Part shown: one piece after another, positions 6,489 to 58,348 of the stretch | Layout: each line of letters starts with the position of its first letter | Position numbering within the stretch: the stretch's first letter is position 1 | Assembly: GCA_009787625.1 (NCBI GenBank) | Contig: WQSX01000010.1 | Coordinates: 1 to 64,000 of the forward strand | DNA length: 64,000 nt | Reading direction: 5' to 3' | Origin: Oscillospiraceae bacterium | GTDB lineage: Bacteria; Bacillota; Clostridia; Oscillospirales; Oscillospiraceae | Notes under the pieces: model-generated | Seen by the model: the letters and a program-made list of their open reading frames with translations, nothing else | Told to the model about the DNA's origin: nothing | Databases searched by the model: none | Made by a program: the position numbers and the translations under genes

Positions 6489-6523
6489 ATGAAATACCCT
6501 TAATCCAGTTTTGCTGAAGTCCA

Positions 6524-6619
6524 GCAGATTGTGGGCTGTTTACGGAGTCTTTTTTGCGAGAACAGCGGTGTAGATCCCGATGGCTCGCAAAAAAGCGGAG
6601 TAAATTGCCCACCATCTGC
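6524..6619. repeat. R2 hairpin repeat, copy a
   Basis: Loop AACAGCGGTGTAGATCCCGATGG on + strand within GCGAG/CTCGC stem; between potA and potB. Confidence 0.85.
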
Positions 6620-6640
6620 GAGGTCACCGCGGCGCGTCCC

Positions 6641-17988: not shown

Positions 17989-18080
17989 GGGTGCATTTTG
18001 TAGGAGCGACCGTCCCCGGTCGCCCGCAACATAGGAAGCAAATCCGACAAACGGGCGACCGAGGACGGTCGCCCCTACGG
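17986..18080. repeat. R1 palindromic repeat, inverted pair
   Basis: GTAGGAGCGACCGTCCCCGGTCGCCCG ... CGGGCGACCGAGGACGGTCGCCCCTAC. Confidence 0.8.
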
Positions 18081-22719: not shown

Positions 22720-22735
22720 TGCACTCGTTGATTTC

Positions 22736-22861
22736 CGCAGATGATGGGCAATTTGCTCCGCTTTTTGTAGGGGCGACCGTCTCGGTCGCCCGCTCTTGCC
22801 GCTTGCACAGTGTAGCCGCTGTTCTCGCAAAAAAGACTACGCAAACAGCCCACCCTCTGCT
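22736..22861. repeat. Hybrid R2/R1 repeat, copy b
   Basis: R2 outer arms GCAGATGATGGGCAATTTG ... CTGTTCTCGCAAAAAAGAC...CTCTGC with R1 core GTAGGGGCGACCGTCTCGGTCGCCCG replacing part of the loop. Confidence 0.75.
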
Positions 22862-24138: not shown

Positions 24139-24167
24139 AAATTGAAAAGTAGCTGTTCAGTATCCCC

Positions 24168-24262
24168 GCAAATGATGGGCAATTTACCCTGATTTTTCGG
24201 GAGCCATCGGGATATACACCGCTGTTCTCCCGAAAAACCAGGGCAAACTGCCCATCATTTGC
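24168..24262. repeat. R2 hairpin repeat, copy c
   Basis: Inverted arms GCAAATGATGGGCAATTTACCCTGATTTTTCGGGAG / CTCCCGAAAAACCAGGGCAAACTGCCCATCATTTGC. Confidence 0.9.
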
Positions 24263-24312
24263 TAGCCTGGTGAATAGTTACTACAAAAACTCCACAGGAG
24301 GTACATTTTGTA

Positions 24313-26040
24313 TTGAAAAAGCTTTTCAGACTTTTTAGCTTTGCAGGTCCCTGGGCGCATTTGTTGATTATTGCGACGGTTGCACTCCTTGTTATAACGG
24401 GGGTAAACTTGCTTGCTCCGGAAGTAATTCGGCGTGTTATTGTAATTATGGAAGGCGGAGATGTTCAAAGCCATTTAGACCAAATAGTGCGCCTTGCATT
24501 AATTTTATTTGGATTTTTCACACTTCGTGCGATTTGCCAGTTCATCAACAGCTATTTATCTCATGTTGCTTCATGGAATATGGTCAATAGGCTACGCTGT
24601 GTTGTTTATGAGCATCTTCAAAAGCTCTCGATGAGTTATTATCACAATAAGCAAACTGGCGAACTCATGTCGCGTGTCATTAACGACACCACCACATTTG
24701 AAAACCTTATTGCACACGCACTGCCTGAAATTACCTCACACATAATCACAATTGTGGGTGTGCTTATAATACTGTTTACGATAAACCCTATGCTTGCTCT
24801 TCTTGTGTGCATACCGATTCCGTTTATCGCTGTGGTGTCAATGATACCGAAACTGATGCGTAAGCATTTCAAGCGAGGGCAGGAACTGATTGCTGAGCTA
24901 AATGCTGTGTTACAGGATAACTTTTCGGGGATTAAAGAAATTCAGGTTTTCAATAAGCAAAAGTATGAGCTTGAAAAGGTCAAAGAAAAGTCAACTTTAC
25001 ATGTTAAGGCTCTTATAAAGGCGCTATTTTATGCAGGGGTACTACACCCTTCGGTGGCGTTTATTACAACGCTTGGTACGATAATTGTTTTAATTGCAGG
25101 GCCGAGGATAGCTGTTGCGACAGGACTTCAAATCTCGGATATAGTTGCTTTTCTGCTGTACCTAAATCTGTTCTACGCACCGATTGCAACACTTGCACGC
25201 ATTGTTGAAGATGTGCAACAAGGCATTGCGGGAACGGAGCGAGTTTTTGACTTACTTGATGTCGAGCCGGACATAAAGGACAGCCCAAATGCTCAAAAAG
25301 TCGGCAGGCTAAGTGGGCAAATTGAGTTTCGTGATGTGTCGTTTTCCTATGAGGAAGATATCGAAGTTTTGGAGAATATCAACTTTAAGGCGGAAGCAGG
25401 GCAGATGGTGGCAATTGTCGGGCCCACAGGTGTAGGGAAGAGCACGATTTCAGGGCTTATTGCACGCTTTTATGATCCGATTTCAGGCTCAATAGTGATG
25501 GATGGCATAGATATTAAAAACATGACTCTCGAAAGCCTGAGAAATCAGCTCAGTCTTGTATTACAAGATGTATTTTTATTCAATGGCACCATAGGTGAAA
25601 ACATCGCCTATGGCACAGATGGCGCAACGCCTGAGATGATTGAAGAGGCGGCACGGGTTGCATGTGTTGATGAATTCATAGAATCACTGCCAGATAAATA
25701 TGATACTTTTATCGGCGAGAGGGGAGTAAGGCTGAGCGGCGGACAAAAACAACGTCTGTCAATTGCCCGCAGTATATTAAGAAACAGCCCTATTTTACTG
25801 CTCGACGAGGCGACATCGGCGGTCGATACAGAAACAGAGCGTGAAATTCAAAATGCCATCGGAAAAATTAAAGGTCAACGGACACTAATTGTAATAGCCC
25901 ACAGGCTTTCGACAATCAAACGAGCCGACTTGATTATAGCCCTGCAAGACGGAAAAATCGCCGAGAGCGGCACACACGACGAGCTACTGACAAAAGGCGG
26001 CATCTATGCTGCGCTTTGTGAGTATCAGAGTTTGAGTTAG
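24313..26040 (+). CDS. ABC transporter ATP-binding/permease (exporter type)
   Basis: N-terminal TMD; GPTGVGKST, LSGGQKQRLSIARSI, LLLDEATSAVD. Confidence 0.92.
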   Translation: MKKLFRLFSFAGPWAHLLIIATVALLVITGVNLLAPEVIRRVIVIMEGGDVQSHLDQIVRLALILFGFFTLRAICQFINSYLSHVASWNMVNRLRCVVYEHLQKLSMSYYHNKQTGELMSRVINDTTTFENLIAHALPEITSHIITIVGVLIILFTINPMLALLVCIPIPFIAVVSMIPKLMRKHFKRGQELIAELNAVLQDNFSGIKEIQVFNKQKYELEKVKEKSTLHVKALIKALFYAGVLHPSVAFITTLGTIIVLIAGPRIAVATGLQISDIVAFLLYLNLFYAPIATLARIVEDVQQGIAGTERVFDLLDVEPDIKDSPNAQKVGRLSGQIEFRDVSFSYEEDIEVLENINFKAEAGQMVAIVGPTGVGKSTISGLIARFYDPISGSIVMDGIDIKNMTLESLRNQLSLVLQDVFLFNGTIGENIAYGTDGATPEMIEEAARVACVDEFIESLPDKYDTFIGERGVRLSGGQKQRLSIARSILRNSPILLLDEATSAVDTETEREIQNAIGKIKGQRTLIVIAHRLSTIKRADLIIALQDGKIAESGTHDELLTKGGIYAALCEYQSLS

Positions 26041-26060
26041 ACAGGGCAAGGGCAATTGCT

Positions 26061-26570
26061 TTATACAGTATCAATTGTTCCCGAAATGCCGTTTAGTGCG
26101 CCGTTGTACAGTTCTTGCACCATACTCCACTCTGCTGATTTATCGCTCTTATGATAAATACTATATGAATAAGACGGAACGAATCCTAATTTATGATAAA
26201 GATCCGGGTTACCACAAAGAAATACTGCTCTAAAACCCATATTCCTCGCACGAGCCAATGCTTCTTCTGTCATGGCACGAGCAATGCCTTGTCGAAAAAA
26301 GTTGGGATGTACGCTTATCGGTGAAAGCAATAATTCCGTGTGGTTACCTTGCGGAGTAATTATATCAGTCTTGTATAGGGTTATCTGTCCAACAATTTGC
26401 CCACCTTTTTCAGCAACTAGCGATAATTCAGGGATGAATACATCTTTCGTGCGTAACTCATTTAAGTAATCAGGTACTGTCCCATCCGTGGCTTCATTGG
26501 ATTCAAACGAAGATTTGACAAGCTGATACACTTCGCTATAGTCCGCCGGTCTTTCTTGACGAATTGTCAC
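26061..26570 (-). CDS. GNAT family N-acetyltransferase
   Basis: LSPISVHPNFFRQGIARAMTEEALARARNMGFRAVFLCGNPDLYHKLGF. Confidence 0.9.
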   Translation of the reverse strand: MTIRQERPADYSEVYQLVKSSFESNEATDGTVPDYLNELRTKDVFIPELSLVAEKGGQIVGQITLYKTDIITPQGNHTELLLSPISVHPNFFRQGIARAMTEEALARARNMGFRAVFLCGNPDLYHKLGFVPSYSYSIYHKSDKSAEWSMVQELYNGALNGISGTIDTV

Positions 26571-26610
26571 TATTGAAGTCCCCCTATTATAAATTCGTTA
26601 CAGCGACACA

Positions 26611-26709
26611 GCTTAAGGACTTAACACGTCGCCTAACTCCGCATGAACTGTTTGCTCCACTAATTGAGCAATTTCTGTTGCTTTTGCTTTATTCAAGCCG
26701 ATATGTTCG
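26611..26709 (-). pseudogene. hipA-like C-terminal remnant
   Basis: Minus strand reads EHIGLNKAKATEIAQLVEQTVHAELGDVLSP*; ~64 nt nearly identical to 27671-27734. Confidence 0.7.
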
Positions 26710-26945
26710 ACTAGGCGGCATCGGAGGTCGATACAGAAACAGAGCGTGAGATTCAAAATGCCATCGGCAAAATTAAAGATCAAAGGACACTAATTGTAAT
26801 AGCTTACAGGCTTTCGACAATCAAACGAGCCGGCTTGATTATAGCCCTACAAGACGGCAAAATAGCCGAGAGCGGCACTCACGACGAGCTACTCGCAAAA
26901 GGCGGCATCTATGCGGAGCTTTGTGAGTATCAGAGTTTGAGTTGA
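26708..26945 (+). pseudogene. Duplicated 3' end of the 24313 ABC transporter gene
   Basis: Matches 25803-26040 at roughly 90% identity by eye (post-Walker B to stop). Confidence 0.85.
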
Positions 26946-27067
26946 TAAACAAATTAACTGTTGTGTGGTGGTTACATAGTTTACGTAATTGTTTTGGAGG
27001 AAAATGAAAAAATTGTAAGGGAAGTTATCGAGTTTTACGATGTTAACTTGCATAGATTTAAGTGGTG

Positions 27068-27093
27068 AAGCAGGGTTACCGTAACCTTGCTTT
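27068..27093 (-). terminator. Probable terminator of hip/TA operon
   Basis: AAGCAGGGTTACCGTAACCTTGCTTT dyad at the toxin stop. Confidence 0.45.
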
Positions 27094-27403
27094 AAAGGGG
27101 AATTTGCGTCAAGTATCCTTCGATATATTTTTGCTTGCTATGAACAACAGCGACAATCGTGACAATTTCTCCATCAAAAGCATAGATGATACGATAAGAG
27201 TATTTTATCAACTGTCTTAATCCTAAATCGGGGAAATCAGATAAAATATGTCCCATTTCAGGAAAGATTTTCAAATTATCTGCATGGTCGATGATCTCAT
27301 TTACAACCCTCTTTGCATGAAAAGTGGAGTCTTCTGAAATGTAGCGTTCAATAGATTTTAAGTTTGCTAAAGCCTTGCTTGACCCATTTAGGGAAAATTC
27401 CAT
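27092..27403 (-). CDS. ParE/RelE-superfamily toxin
   Basis: KSIERYISEDSTFHAKRVVNEIIDHADNLKIFPEMG ... IKYSYRIIYAFDGEIVTIVAVVHSKQ. Confidence 0.82.
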   Translation of the reverse strand: MEFSLNGSSKALANLKSIERYISEDSTFHAKRVVNEIIDHADNLKIFPEMGHILSDFPDLGLRQLIKYSYRIIYAFDGEIVTIVAVVHSKQKYIEGYLTQIPL

Positions 27404-27571
27404 TTATGCGAATATCCTTTTTACCTCATCATGGGTGTGAACACGACCTGCTTCAATGTCTTCAATCCCTCCTGTTATGTTGTTCATGATATATAAATTG
27501 TACAATAAGTCAGCAAAGGTAACATCATCAGGCATAGTATTAATAAGATCCAGTACTTCTTGTTTTGACAT
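27404..27571 (-). CDS. Cognate small antitoxin-like protein
   Basis: MSKQEVLDLINTMPDDVTFADLLYNLYIMNNITGGIEDIEAGRVHTHDEVKRIFA; abuts toxin start. Confidence 0.72.
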   Translation of the reverse strand: MSKQEVLDLINTMPDDVTFADLLYNLYIMNNITGGIEDIEAGRVHTHDEVKRIFA

Positions 27572-27617
27572 TGCTATAACACTCCTTGTCTTTTTGTCTA
27601 GTATATCACAAAGCAAA

Positions 27618-28775
27618 TTAACATTTCAACCTCAACAGTACCCTATTTCCAAAAGATCCAAGTTCCTCTTGAACTGTTTGCTCCACTAATTGAGCAACTT
27701 CCGTTGCTTTTGCTTTATTCAAGCCGATATGCTCAGCAACGGCGAGCAAATCTTTTGTCGAGGGGTTCAGCCCGTTGCCGTTTATGCAAGTTGCATGTTC
27801 TCCGCCGAGCGAATAGCTGTAGGTTAAATCATATGCAGGGGATAACTTCCACTGATGCGATGCTTCATCATAGAGAAACGAAAAGTTATTTGAATGGTCG
27901 TCTCGGTTGTGAGCGAACACATTAAAGCACATTAGGCGGTACATTTTTTCCACTTCCGAATAGTCTTTTGTGAGTTCAAGCGTCAGCTTCATAAGTGAAT
28001 TATAGTCGAGAGCTGGTAAGCGGTGAGAGATTTCAAGCAGAGCGGACACAGAGAGCATGTGTGTTCGCTTTGTTTTACCGTCTTTAAGCTTTTGTCTGTC
28101 AAACCGCTTAGTTCCGAAATATCCTGCACATTGTGCTGAAGGGAACAGGCGTGTTTCGCTCATGGTGATACCACATTTTTTTGCACACCGTGAGTACCGA
28201 TATTCAATCTCGCCTGAATCTTTTCTGTCGAGACCGGCGTGGAACTTAACAATCCAGTCTTCGCCGTCTATTTTTGTCAAAATTTTGGGGCGTGCTCCGC
28301 CTGATGAACCTCCGAGTCGGAAGAGTTCGTCAAGGTCATCAGAATATTCTGACTGAAGTATTTTTGTGCATTCTCTAGCGAGTCTGTCATATTCGTATGT
28401 GTCCTCTGTAATTTGCCACTTATGAGCAGGAAGGTAGGTGAGTGCTCCCATTCCTGATTTTCCCACAATCGCCAGACGGGTGATAGCATCTATTTTATTC
28501 GGTGCAGTGCCCTCTTTGGCGAGCATTCGATCCACCAACAGCCGCCCCCAGCCATCAGGCAAGCTGTCCGCAAAAACTCCAAACAGTCCATCAAATGGGT
28601 CGTATTTGGGCATGAAAAGCTTTTTTATGAGCGGAAGTGCAAAGGGGCTTATCGAAAAACCGTCAGCAAGCCATGCGTCTGCATATTCAAAAGCAACAAA
28701 CCGCCCTTGATACATAGCCAAAGTTCCGACCTGCCTGTCGTCAATATGGACATTGAGCATTTTATAGGTTTCCAT
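27618..28775 (-). CDS. hipA: HipA-family serine/threonine kinase toxin
   Basis: GGSSGGARPKILTKIDGEDWIVKFHAGLDRKD; NVFAHNRDDHSNNFSFLYDE; LSPAYDLTYS. Confidence 0.9.
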   Translation of the reverse strand: METYKMLNVHIDDRQVGTLAMYQGRFVAFEYADAWLADGFSISPFALPLIKKLFMPKYDPFDGLFGVFADSLPDGWGRLLVDRMLAKEGTAPNKIDAITRLAIVGKSGMGALTYLPAHKWQITEDTYEYDRLARECTKILQSEYSDDLDELFRLGGSSGGARPKILTKIDGEDWIVKFHAGLDRKDSGEIEYRYSRCAKKCGITMSETRLFPSAQCAGYFGTKRFDRQKLKDGKTKRTHMLSVSALLEISHRLPALDYNSLMKLTLELTKDYSEVEKMYRLMCFNVFAHNRDDHSNNFSFLYDEASHQWKLSPAYDLTYSYSLGGEHATCINGNGLNPSTKDLLAVAEHIGLNKAKATEVAQLVEQTVQEELGSFGNRVLLRLKC

Positions 28776-29127: not shown

Positions 29128-29224
29128 GCAGGTGAGGAGTTGTTTGCGTAGTCTTTTTTGCGAGAACAGCGGTGTAGATCCCGATGGCTCGCAAAAAAGA
29201 CTACGCAAACAACTCCTCACCTGC
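29128..29224. repeat. R2 hairpin repeat, copy d (perfect arms)
   Basis: GCAGGTGAGGAGTTGTTTGCGTAGTCTTTTTTGCGAG and its exact reverse complement around the conserved loop. Confidence 0.92.
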
Positions 29225-30869: not shown

Positions 30870-30912
30870 AATTAAGGACCCCTTTTTTTATTTGTAACTG
30901 CTCTGCGTTCCC

Positions 30913-31007
30913 GCAGATGATGGGCAATTCACCCTGATTTTTCGGGAGCCATCGGGATCTACACCGCTGTTCTCCCGAAAAACCAGTGCAAACTGCCCAT
31001 CATCTGC
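30913..31007. repeat. R2 hairpin repeat, copy e
   Basis: GCAGATGATGGGCAATTCACCCTG...CCATCGGGATCTACACCGCTGTT...CCAGTGCAAACTGCCCATCATCTGC. Confidence 0.9.
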
Positions 31008-31025
31008 TAGTCTGGTGAATGGTTA

Positions 31026-51776: not shown

Positions 51777-51818
51777 AACTAAATCAACCTTTCAAAATTG
51801 AAACTGTTCACCACTTTC

Positions 51819-51913
51819 GCAGATGATGAGCAACTTATCCTGATTTTTCGGGAACCATCGGGATATACACCGCTGTTCTCCCGAAAAACCAGTGCAAACT
51901 GCCCATCTTCTGC
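51819..51913. repeat. R2 hairpin repeat, copy f
   Basis: GCAGATGATGAGCAACTTATCCTG ... CCAGTGCAAACTGCCCATCTTCTGC with conserved loop; outer AACTGTTCACCA/TGGTGAATAGTT. Confidence 0.9.
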
Positions 51914-51949
51914 CAGACTGGTGAATAGTTATTCAAAATTTACATATGA

Positions 51950-53100: not shown

Positions 53101-54051
53101 GTGGCGAAAGTTTGGACTATGGGTGAACTGTTGTGTGAAGTTATGAGACCGGAGCTTGATGCGTCTTTAGATAAGCCCGGAGAGTTTCTCGGACCGTATC
53201 CGAGCGGTGCCCCGGCGATTTTTATAGACACAGTTGCAAGATTGGGGCACAGTGCGGGCATTGTCGGAGGTGTTGGCAAAGACGATTTTGGAAAATGCCT
53301 GATTGATAGGCTCAAGCGGGACGGTGTTGACTGCACTCATATCAAGCAGTATGACGATGGAACTACAGGTGTTGCGTTTGTGACGTATTTTAGTGATGGC
53401 TCACGTCGATTTTTATATCACTTTCCCGACACACCGGCAACAAGACCAAAAGCCCCCGATGTAAGTAGTTTAGGGGATAGTGTTCACTTTTTTCACATCA
53501 TGGGCTGCTCTCTTATGGCAAAAAGAGAATTTGGACAGGAAATTGTTAAGCTTATGCACGCATTAATTGGCAGAGGTGCAAAAATTTCTTTTGATCCGAA
53601 TATTCGCCCGGAACTCTTAAAAGATGATCTCACACTAAAGCTTGTAAATGATGTGATGCAAAATTGCAGCGTGTTTCTTCCCGGTGTCGCCGAGCTTCTG
53701 AGCATTAGCGGAAAAGAGACTGTTGAGGAAGCCGTAAAATGTTGTTTTGAAAACCCCACGCTTGAAGTGATTGCACTTAAAAAAGGTTCTGACGGTTGTG
53801 TCGTATTTACTCGCGACAGCGAGGTTTCGCTTGGAGTATATCAGGTTGAAGTTAAGGATCCCACAGGGGCAGGTGATTGCTTTGATGCGGCTTTCTTGTG
53901 CGGACTTTTGGATGAGAAGAGTATTTCCGATGCCGCCAAAATCGCTTCCGCAGCCGCTGCACTGAACACCGCCGCATTCGGTCCGATGGAAGGGGATATA
54001 AGCAGAGATACAGTCGAAAACATGGTGAGAGGTAACTATTCACAGGGCTAG
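53101..54051 (+). CDS. PfkB-family carbohydrate kinase
   Basis: GGVGKDDFGKCLIDRLKRDGVD; DPTGAGDCFDAAFLCGLL. Confidence 0.92.
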   Translation: MAKVWTMGELLCEVMRPELDASLDKPGEFLGPYPSGAPAIFIDTVARLGHSAGIVGGVGKDDFGKCLIDRLKRDGVDCTHIKQYDDGTTGVAFVTYFSDGSRRFLYHFPDTPATRPKAPDVSSLGDSVHFFHIMGCSLMAKREFGQEIVKLMHALIGRGAKISFDPNIRPELLKDDLTLKLVNDVMQNCSVFLPGVAELLSISGKETVEEAVKCCFENPTLEVIALKKGSDGCVVFTRDSEVSLGVYQVEVKDPTGAGDCFDAAFLCGLLDEKSISDAAKIASAAAALNTAAFGPMEGDISRDTVENMVRGNYSQG

Positions 54052-54145
54052 CAGATGATGGGCAGTTTGCCCCGGTTTTTCGGGAGAACAGCGGTGTAGA
54101 TCCCGATGGCTCCCGAAAAACCGGGGCAAACTGCTCATCATCTGC
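54051..54145. repeat. R2 hairpin repeat, copy g
   Basis: GCAGATGATGGGCAGTTTGCCCCGGTTTTTCGGGAG...CTCCCGAAAAACCGGGGCAAACTGCTCATCATCTGC, loop AACAGCGGTGTAGATCCCGATGG. Confidence 0.92.
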
Positions 54146-54217
54146 GGAGACACTGAGCAGGTACGGTGAGAAGGATAAAAAAATCGGTCGTCTTATCAAC
54201 GGCCGATTTTCTTAACG

Positions 54218-54246
54218 TAGGGGTGACTGCGGCCGGTCGCTCCTAC
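54218..54246. repeat. R1 palindromic repeat, diverged copy
   Basis: GTAGGGGTGACTGCGGCCGGTCGCTCCTAC. Confidence 0.65.
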
Positions 54247-58161: not shown

Positions 58162-58225
58162 TTAGTCCTCCTATATTAAAAGTTATCCACCAATCCGGCA
58201 GATGGTGTGCTGGTGCAAGGCTCTC

Positions 58226-58321
58226 GCAGATGACATGCAATTTGTTCCGCTTTTTTGCGAGCCATCGGGATCTACACCGCTGTTCTCGCAAAAAAGACTC
58301 CACAAACTGCACATCATCTGC
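58226..58321. repeat. R2 hairpin repeat, copy h
   Basis: GCAGATGACATGCAATTTG ... CAAACTGCACATCATCTGC with conserved loop, between kbl and tdh. Confidence 0.9.
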
Positions 58322-58348
58322 TTACATTGTGCAGTTATAAGCTATGTG

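Follow-up and report, generated by a model that had tools for sequence, protein, structure and literature searches.

A MITE family with IS66-type ends and a candidate strand-specific RNA hairpin core in an Oscillospiraceae bacterium and its congeners

The R2 hairpins of an Oscillospiraceae bacterium are probably the cores of a MITE family that is mobilized by an IS66-type transposase, and these cores are likely to be structured, strand-specific RNAs that are kept in old copies after the ends of the element have decayed. As a MITE family with IS66-type ends, it is of a known kind; what is unusual is the clarity of its one-strand, RNA-like core, whose tips differ between species.

Among 114 copies with full flanks, 84 are of type 1, with a GCGAG or TCGAG inner stem and hardly any conserved sequence outside the hairpin, and 30 are of type 2, with a CGGGAG inner stem and outer inverted repeats. 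The 23-nt tip folds further: CA.CGG and CCG.TG pair with each other, and the eight bases UGUAGAUC remain as the loop. Within the window, by which we mean the whole 64-kb stretch of DNA that was analysed, the 23-nt loop CCATCGGGAT(C/A)TACACCGCTGTT occurs exactly in seven copies (starting at 6561, 24204, 29165, 30949, 51855, 54087 and 58262), and in none of 100 dinucleotide-preserving shuffles. The preliminary description had counted about eight copies sharing this loop; the seven complete ones carry it exactly and the eighth is a hybrid. The copies are as follows, where the strand given for the 24149..24281 element is the one that carries the G-U wobbles.

6523..6623, plus strand: type-1 hairpin with a GCGAG inner stem, between two co-directional genes; loop 6561-6583.
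22732..22861, minus strand: hybrid copy (22736) that retains its outer arms, while a TGTAGGGGCGACCG.. repeat stands in place of one inner arm and half of the loop; the repeat at the loop half is of the TGTAGGGGCGACC type.
24149..24281, minus strand: complete type-2 element, the copy of the preliminary description, with inverted ends GTAGCTGTTCA / TGAATAGTTAC; hairpin at about 24168-24262, loop 24204-24226, A variant.
29128..29224, plus strand: type-1 hairpin whose 37 perfect pairs are contiguous; loop 29165-29187.
30894..31025, minus strand: type-2 element with outer inverted repeats; loop 30949-30971.
51800..51932, minus strand: type-2 element, 133 bp long, whose flanking 8-bp target duplication (TCAAAATT) is perfect; A-variant loop at 51855-51877.
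54032..54164, plus strand: type-2 element between convergent genes, with an 8-bp duplication that has one mismatch; loop 54087-54109.
58222..58322, minus strand: type-1 hairpin in a kbl/tdh-like operon; loop 58262-58284.

Several details given earlier for these copies hold up. The stem arms do differ between copies, the copy said to have 37 perfect base pairs is the one at 29165, where all 37 are contiguous Watson-Crick pairs, and the outer repeats of the longer copies are true terminal inverted repeats with 8-bp target duplications. The statement that all copies are extragenic is correct for the window and fails elsewhere, because one copy lies in frame in the gene for a 4Fe-4S (Fer4_22) protein (L066:646-1806, minus strand, hairpin at about 1042-1156). 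This copy has the sense of the wobble-carrying strand and is translated through as ..SLFCENSGVDPDGSQKSGAN...

The source genome (G000; an uncultured, gut-type member of the Clostridia; 3.02 Mb in 94 contigs, ~95% complete) contains 136 copies of the loop, split almost evenly between the strands (69 and 67), or about one per 22 kb, and no copy of the reversed loop pattern that served as a control. We extracted 120 distinct copies from the sequence stretches surrounding them. The loop is identical in 110 of these, with 12 substitutions among all 2760 loop bases, and the mean identity between copies is 99.1% for the loop and 72% for the arms. Arms are closer to those of their nearest neighbour (median 93%), and no pair of copies is identical. 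Contigs of this genome and of its congener G005 often end at R2 hairpins (e.g. C12:39, C19:33, C33:29 and C70:40), so that short-read MAGs fragment at the family and under-count it.

The arms covary strongly. In 113 aligned copies, the consensus structure has 37 pairs, of which 24 have changed on both sides, and standard pairs occupy 97.7% of pair cells, compared with 85.6% in shuffles. Cells with double changes number 427, against 98 after shuffling, and a covariation score of 0.366 compares with 0.139 for shuffled and at most 0.09 for slid alignments; on every covariation measure, no shuffle equalled the observed value. Parsimony on a tree of the arms counts 88 double changes from one Watson-Crick pair to another. 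The self-complementary arms with compensatory change that had been described are thus upheld far beyond all controls. Unbroken runs of 29-37 perfect pairs occur in several copies, where the middle segment, asymmetric in the others, has become symmetric. The asymmetric internal loop is conserved, and the terminal loop is not inverted in any aligned copy. No Rfam family attains its gathering score at the element in the window, and the weak matches in relatives are microRNA-type hairpins that score far under the cut-offs. Membership in a known Rfam family was accordingly rejected, and on this point, too, the preliminary description, which could not name a family, stands.

Imperfect pairs are strongly biased towards one strand. 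On the strand reading AACAGCGGTGTAGATCCCGATGG, there are 126 G-U and 17 A-C pairs, a count that omits two pairs where mismatches or wobbles are common. As events counted on the tree, Watson-Crick pairs changed to G-U 81 times and to A-C 16 times (p ~1e-11). The bias is the same where neighbouring genes run with this strand (32:3) as where they run against it (59:7), and the matching strand of seven congeners has 187 G-U and 12 A-C pairs (G018 69:4, G005 71:8, G006 14:0, G007 13:0, G004 3:0, and G008 and G009 together 17:0). The asymmetry therefore belongs to the element and not to its surroundings, and it points to a single strand as the object of selection, whichever way a copy faces. Most simply this object would be an RNA, which is the simplest single-stranded molecule with such a tolerance of wobbles. 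Covariation and one-sided wobbles together support the functional RNA that had been offered as one reading of the repeat.

Relative to co-directional neighbours, the selected strand is antisense in 48 cases and sense in 26 (p 0.014), and 19 copies lie at convergent and 7 at divergent sites (p 0.03), counts that rest on approximate gene calls. The antisense excess argues against a simple mRNA element that serves the adjacent genes. We found no promoter for the selected strand. One candidate, an extended -10 promoter that would face outward from the edge of the hairpin, was dropped, as TATAAT is matched at four or more of six positions in just 20% of type-1 and 3% of type-2 copies.

A recognised mobile hairpin was the other reading of the preliminary description, and its mobility is established by terminal inverted repeats, 8-bp target duplications, sites that are empty in a congener, and an IS66-family partner whose ends match. 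Complete copies are about 133-142 bp long and contain no transposase gene. The youngest have inverted ends of the form GT(A/T)AC..TTCA and 8-bp target duplications. In type-2 copies the ends are GTAACTGTTCA..TGAATAGTTAC, flanked by 8-bp duplications (for example CAAATAAG around the copy at L053:10357-10489), and in young copies of congener G018 they are GTTACACTTCACA..TGTGAACTGTAAC, likewise with 8-bp duplications. The terminal repeats of type-1 copies have mostly decayed; remnants with at least 8 of 12 matches show only a weak enrichment of ~3- to 6-fold, being found for example in 19% versus 6%, or 17% versus 3%, of copies, and target duplications are not detectable above the control in this type. 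Syntenic sites in G005 lack the copies at 22736, 24204, 30949 and 58262, and the flanking genes there are close or contiguous. At the 24149..24281 element they are contiguous, and at 58222..58322 only ~16 bp separate the flanking alignments in G005, compared with 191 bp in the window. A shortened type-2 element of G000 (L043, ~2652-2730) has both terminal repeats intact and has lost the inner stem and loop, which implies that the loop is not needed for transposition.

A probable source of mobility is present in congener G006, where an IS66-family element (L242:1372-3266) has the same 12-bp ends as the hairpin elements, GTAACTATTCAG / CTGAACAGTTAC, and a perfect 8-bp target duplication, CTTTTTCA. 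Its transposase is 514 amino acids long (PF03050, E 2e-41). The 626 kb of sequence that was fetched contain seven exact matches to the 12-mer GTAACT(A/G)TTCAG, and five of these are on such elements or on a shortened copy. In G005, GGTGTGACTAGTAAC, which forms the end of another G018 subfamily, follows an IS66-type gene, and an IS66 relic in G000 consists of a 207-amino-acid C-terminal part followed by the matching end GTGAACAGTAAC. No intact IS66 transposase was found in the ~95% complete G000 genome, and no IS66 gene was detected in G018, which has young copies and whose partner may have been lost or missed. The hairpin core was not found in IS66 loci. An IS66-family partner for the MITE is well supported at the sequence level, its activity on the element being predicted from the shared ends.

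A covariance model built from the G000 copies, a check proposed in the preliminary description, finds homologues in seven congeners: at least 61 in G005, 41 in G018, 9 in G006, 7 in G007, 5 in G008, 4 in G009 and 1 in G004. The genome G036, from the same family, has a single weak match (E 0.04), and nothing was found by the model in 64 loci around kbl from other Clostridia and unrelated bacteria. Most named proteins related to the kbl product come from Clostridia MAGs, and the closest are labelled Oscillospiraceae, with 76% amino-acid identity. The G000 loop itself, at up to three mismatches, has no copy among 98 relatives, including 18 congeners, and exact searches of a species-level genome collection and of viral contigs returned none. 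A similarity search of phages and plasmids gave no match either, and a phage, plasmid or viral-contig source was rejected on the basis of these searches.

The congeners instead have tips of their own. The tip is GGGCGACAAGACCC in G018, G004 and G007, GGGCGATAAGACCC in G006, and GCTTAG(A/C)ATTGAGC in G008 and G009, while G005 has several, of which AACAGTGGCGCAATGCTCTCTGG is the main one, with 35 copies at three mismatches or fewer. Nearly all G000 copies have the G000 tip; the two exceptions found are on contigs C36 and C51. At the start of contig C36 (L248:1-120), one copy matches the G005 loop exactly, has arms like those of G005 and carries a terminal inverted repeat; it is either a recent transfer or a contaminant contig end. 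The other (C51:8149; L249, ~510-610) combines the tip AACAGTGACGACAAGATCGCTGG with arms that bear no relation to those of the family, and the same tip occurs in G005 (L148) on ordinary arms. With one tip shared by unrelated and ordinary arms, and the G005 tip present in G000, the tip behaves as a module.

At three G005 sites and one G018 site, a hairpin is found in the same place and orientation as in G000 with the loop of the other species; the G005 site (L114) syntenic to 6523..6623 has a same-orientation hairpin with a different loop. One G005 site has its hairpin in the opposite orientation. The arms of the paired G005 and G000 copies are not mutual best matches (zero-based ranks 26, 8 and 13 of 120). 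The tree of the arms mixes species (14 changes), and an AU test does not reject a single G005 clade (p 0.36). These sites are no more than suggestive of concerted loop replacement at orthologous insertions, and independent insertion may also account for them. We do not claim concerted evolution, because arm similarity fails to single out the orthologue.

If R2 were an ordinary MITE that does nothing except move, the hairpin and loop would be constrained only in a few source copies and all copies would be young. The terminal repeats, target duplications and empty sites do attest to recent mobility, and the congeners' own loops fit the filling of each species by its own active lineage. However, no two arms are identical, yet the loops hardly differ, and type-1 copies have a loop and pairing as good as those of type 2 despite the decay of most of their terminal repeats. 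In 14 type-2 copies with recognizable target duplications, moreover, the duplicate pair differs at ~6% of sites and the loop at ~0.9%, whereas constraint on source copies alone would leave dead copies unprotected. Decayed ends and diverged duplications beside an intact loop and intact pairing favour maintenance after insertion, and on these comparisons the hairpin seems to be preserved at its present site. We consider an ordinary MITE unlikely.

Maintenance of pairing could have a mutational cause, since template switching can restore hairpin pairing and leave perfect palindromes (PMC8794818). This documented process probably contributes to the perfect palindromes of R2, in which long runs of perfect pairs accompany a symmetrized middle segment. 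As the sole cause of pairing, through quasipalindrome correction with no selection for structure, it is very improbable, for it makes Watson-Crick palindromes and leaves unexplained why G-U is 7-fold commoner than A-C, why the asymmetric internal loop is conserved, and why none of the 113 aligned copies has an inverted loop. The perfect palindromes also bear on a hairpin selected as single-stranded DNA, for example during replication or transposition, with RNA irrelevant, as they suggest template switching at the DNA level. One such DNA hairpin would likewise give a one-stranded bias of G-T over A-C, and the mixed orientation to genes is compatible with it. We nevertheless judge a DNA-level hairpin distinctly unlikely: the 8-bp duplications and terminal repeats point to a double-strand DDE mechanism and not to Y1/HUH, a Y1 transposase is absent from the genome, and strongly tolerated wobbles and conserved G-U positions are typical of RNA. 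A REP/RAYT-type palindrome deserves practically no credence. High-copy, mostly extragenic palindromes in one species do recall REPs, but R2 is far longer than a REP and has target duplications and terminal repeats. The RAYT/TnpA_REP partner that the preliminary description proposed to look for is also missing, as PF01797 has no match in the genome, with positive controls in five known genomes; the candidate was already contradicted by the absence of this Y1 (TnpA_REP) protein.

A mobile element with a selected RNA core thus remains our preferred reading, and it would work as follows. An IS66-family transposase, the most likely agent, would mobilize MITEs of ~133-141 bp in trans by recognizing their outer GT(A/T)AC..TTCA inverted ends, and would make 8-bp target duplications. 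The core is a ~36-bp hairpin with a structured 23-nt tip and is selected as a single strand, most simply RNA, reading 5'-UAGC..stem..GAG-AACAGCGGUGUAGAUCCCGAUGG-CUC..stem..GCGG-3'. The ends of old copies are gone, but their pairing and loop persist, the hairpin apparently being maintained in place. A loop that is uniform within a species and replaced in congeners suggests recognition by a co-diverging factor, and this factor, which might be an RNA-binding or RNA-processing protein, would recognize the tip. Transcription, the recognizing factor and a benefit to host or element are what we infer from these patterns. A bolder version, possible but tentative, is an RNA regulon dispersed by a transposon, in which transcribed hairpins function in place and a co-diverging trans factor reads the species-specific loop, so that ~130 loci in one genome would be kept in concert.

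Several known repeats share properties with R2. Reports on prokaryotic MITEs whose transcripts form stem-loops (ERIC/RU, Correia, RUP, BOX and Coxiella QMITE2) describe elements that are likewise short and non-coding, with terminal inverted repeats, target duplications, many intergenic copies and predicted stable stem-loops (PMC10969869, PMC3049150, PMC2229807). Unlike those MITEs, R2 has strong compensatory covariation, a one-strand wobble bias, and a loop that is uniform in a species and different in congeners; in the literature consulted we found no report of such covariation, strand bias or species-specific loop for those families. IS66-family insertion sequences share the 8-bp target duplication with R2 and, in the G006 element, the same 12-bp ends, but R2 has no transposase and only the ends in common with them. 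REPs and BIMEs with RAYT are also high-copy extragenic palindromes, whereas R2 has target duplications, no Y1 transposase, and a ~95-nt hairpin with a structured 23-nt tip. The copy in L066 is read in frame in a protein gene, as are Rickettsia palindromic elements and intragenic ERIC, although R2 offers only one such case among the copies examined. With Rfam RNA families R2 has in common a covarying structure, but no gathering-score match.

Small mobile repeats of bacteria are usually treated as decaying parasites, and R2 bears all the marks of an RNA structure that has been conserved, on a single strand and in eight genomes. If the hairpins act in place, they would be a direct example of a transposon that spreads a ready-made RNA element genome-wide, and the loop differences between species would make the partner factor searchable.

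Other repeats were seen in the same DNA. A second hairpin repeat, TGTAGGGGCGACCG..CGGTCGCCC, occurs in the window at 2770-2795, 17999-18078 and 54221-54246 and within 22767-22815, and also at L031:17296-17380; twice it replaces the loop inside an R2 hairpin. Direct repeats of 240 nt (92%) and 71 nt (93%) lie in the window segments 25799-26943 and 26638-27734. Two further repeats, one of 42 nt that is identical and one of 34 nt that is GC-rich and hairpin-like, are both duplicated ~750 bp apart, at 362-452 and 1111-1199.
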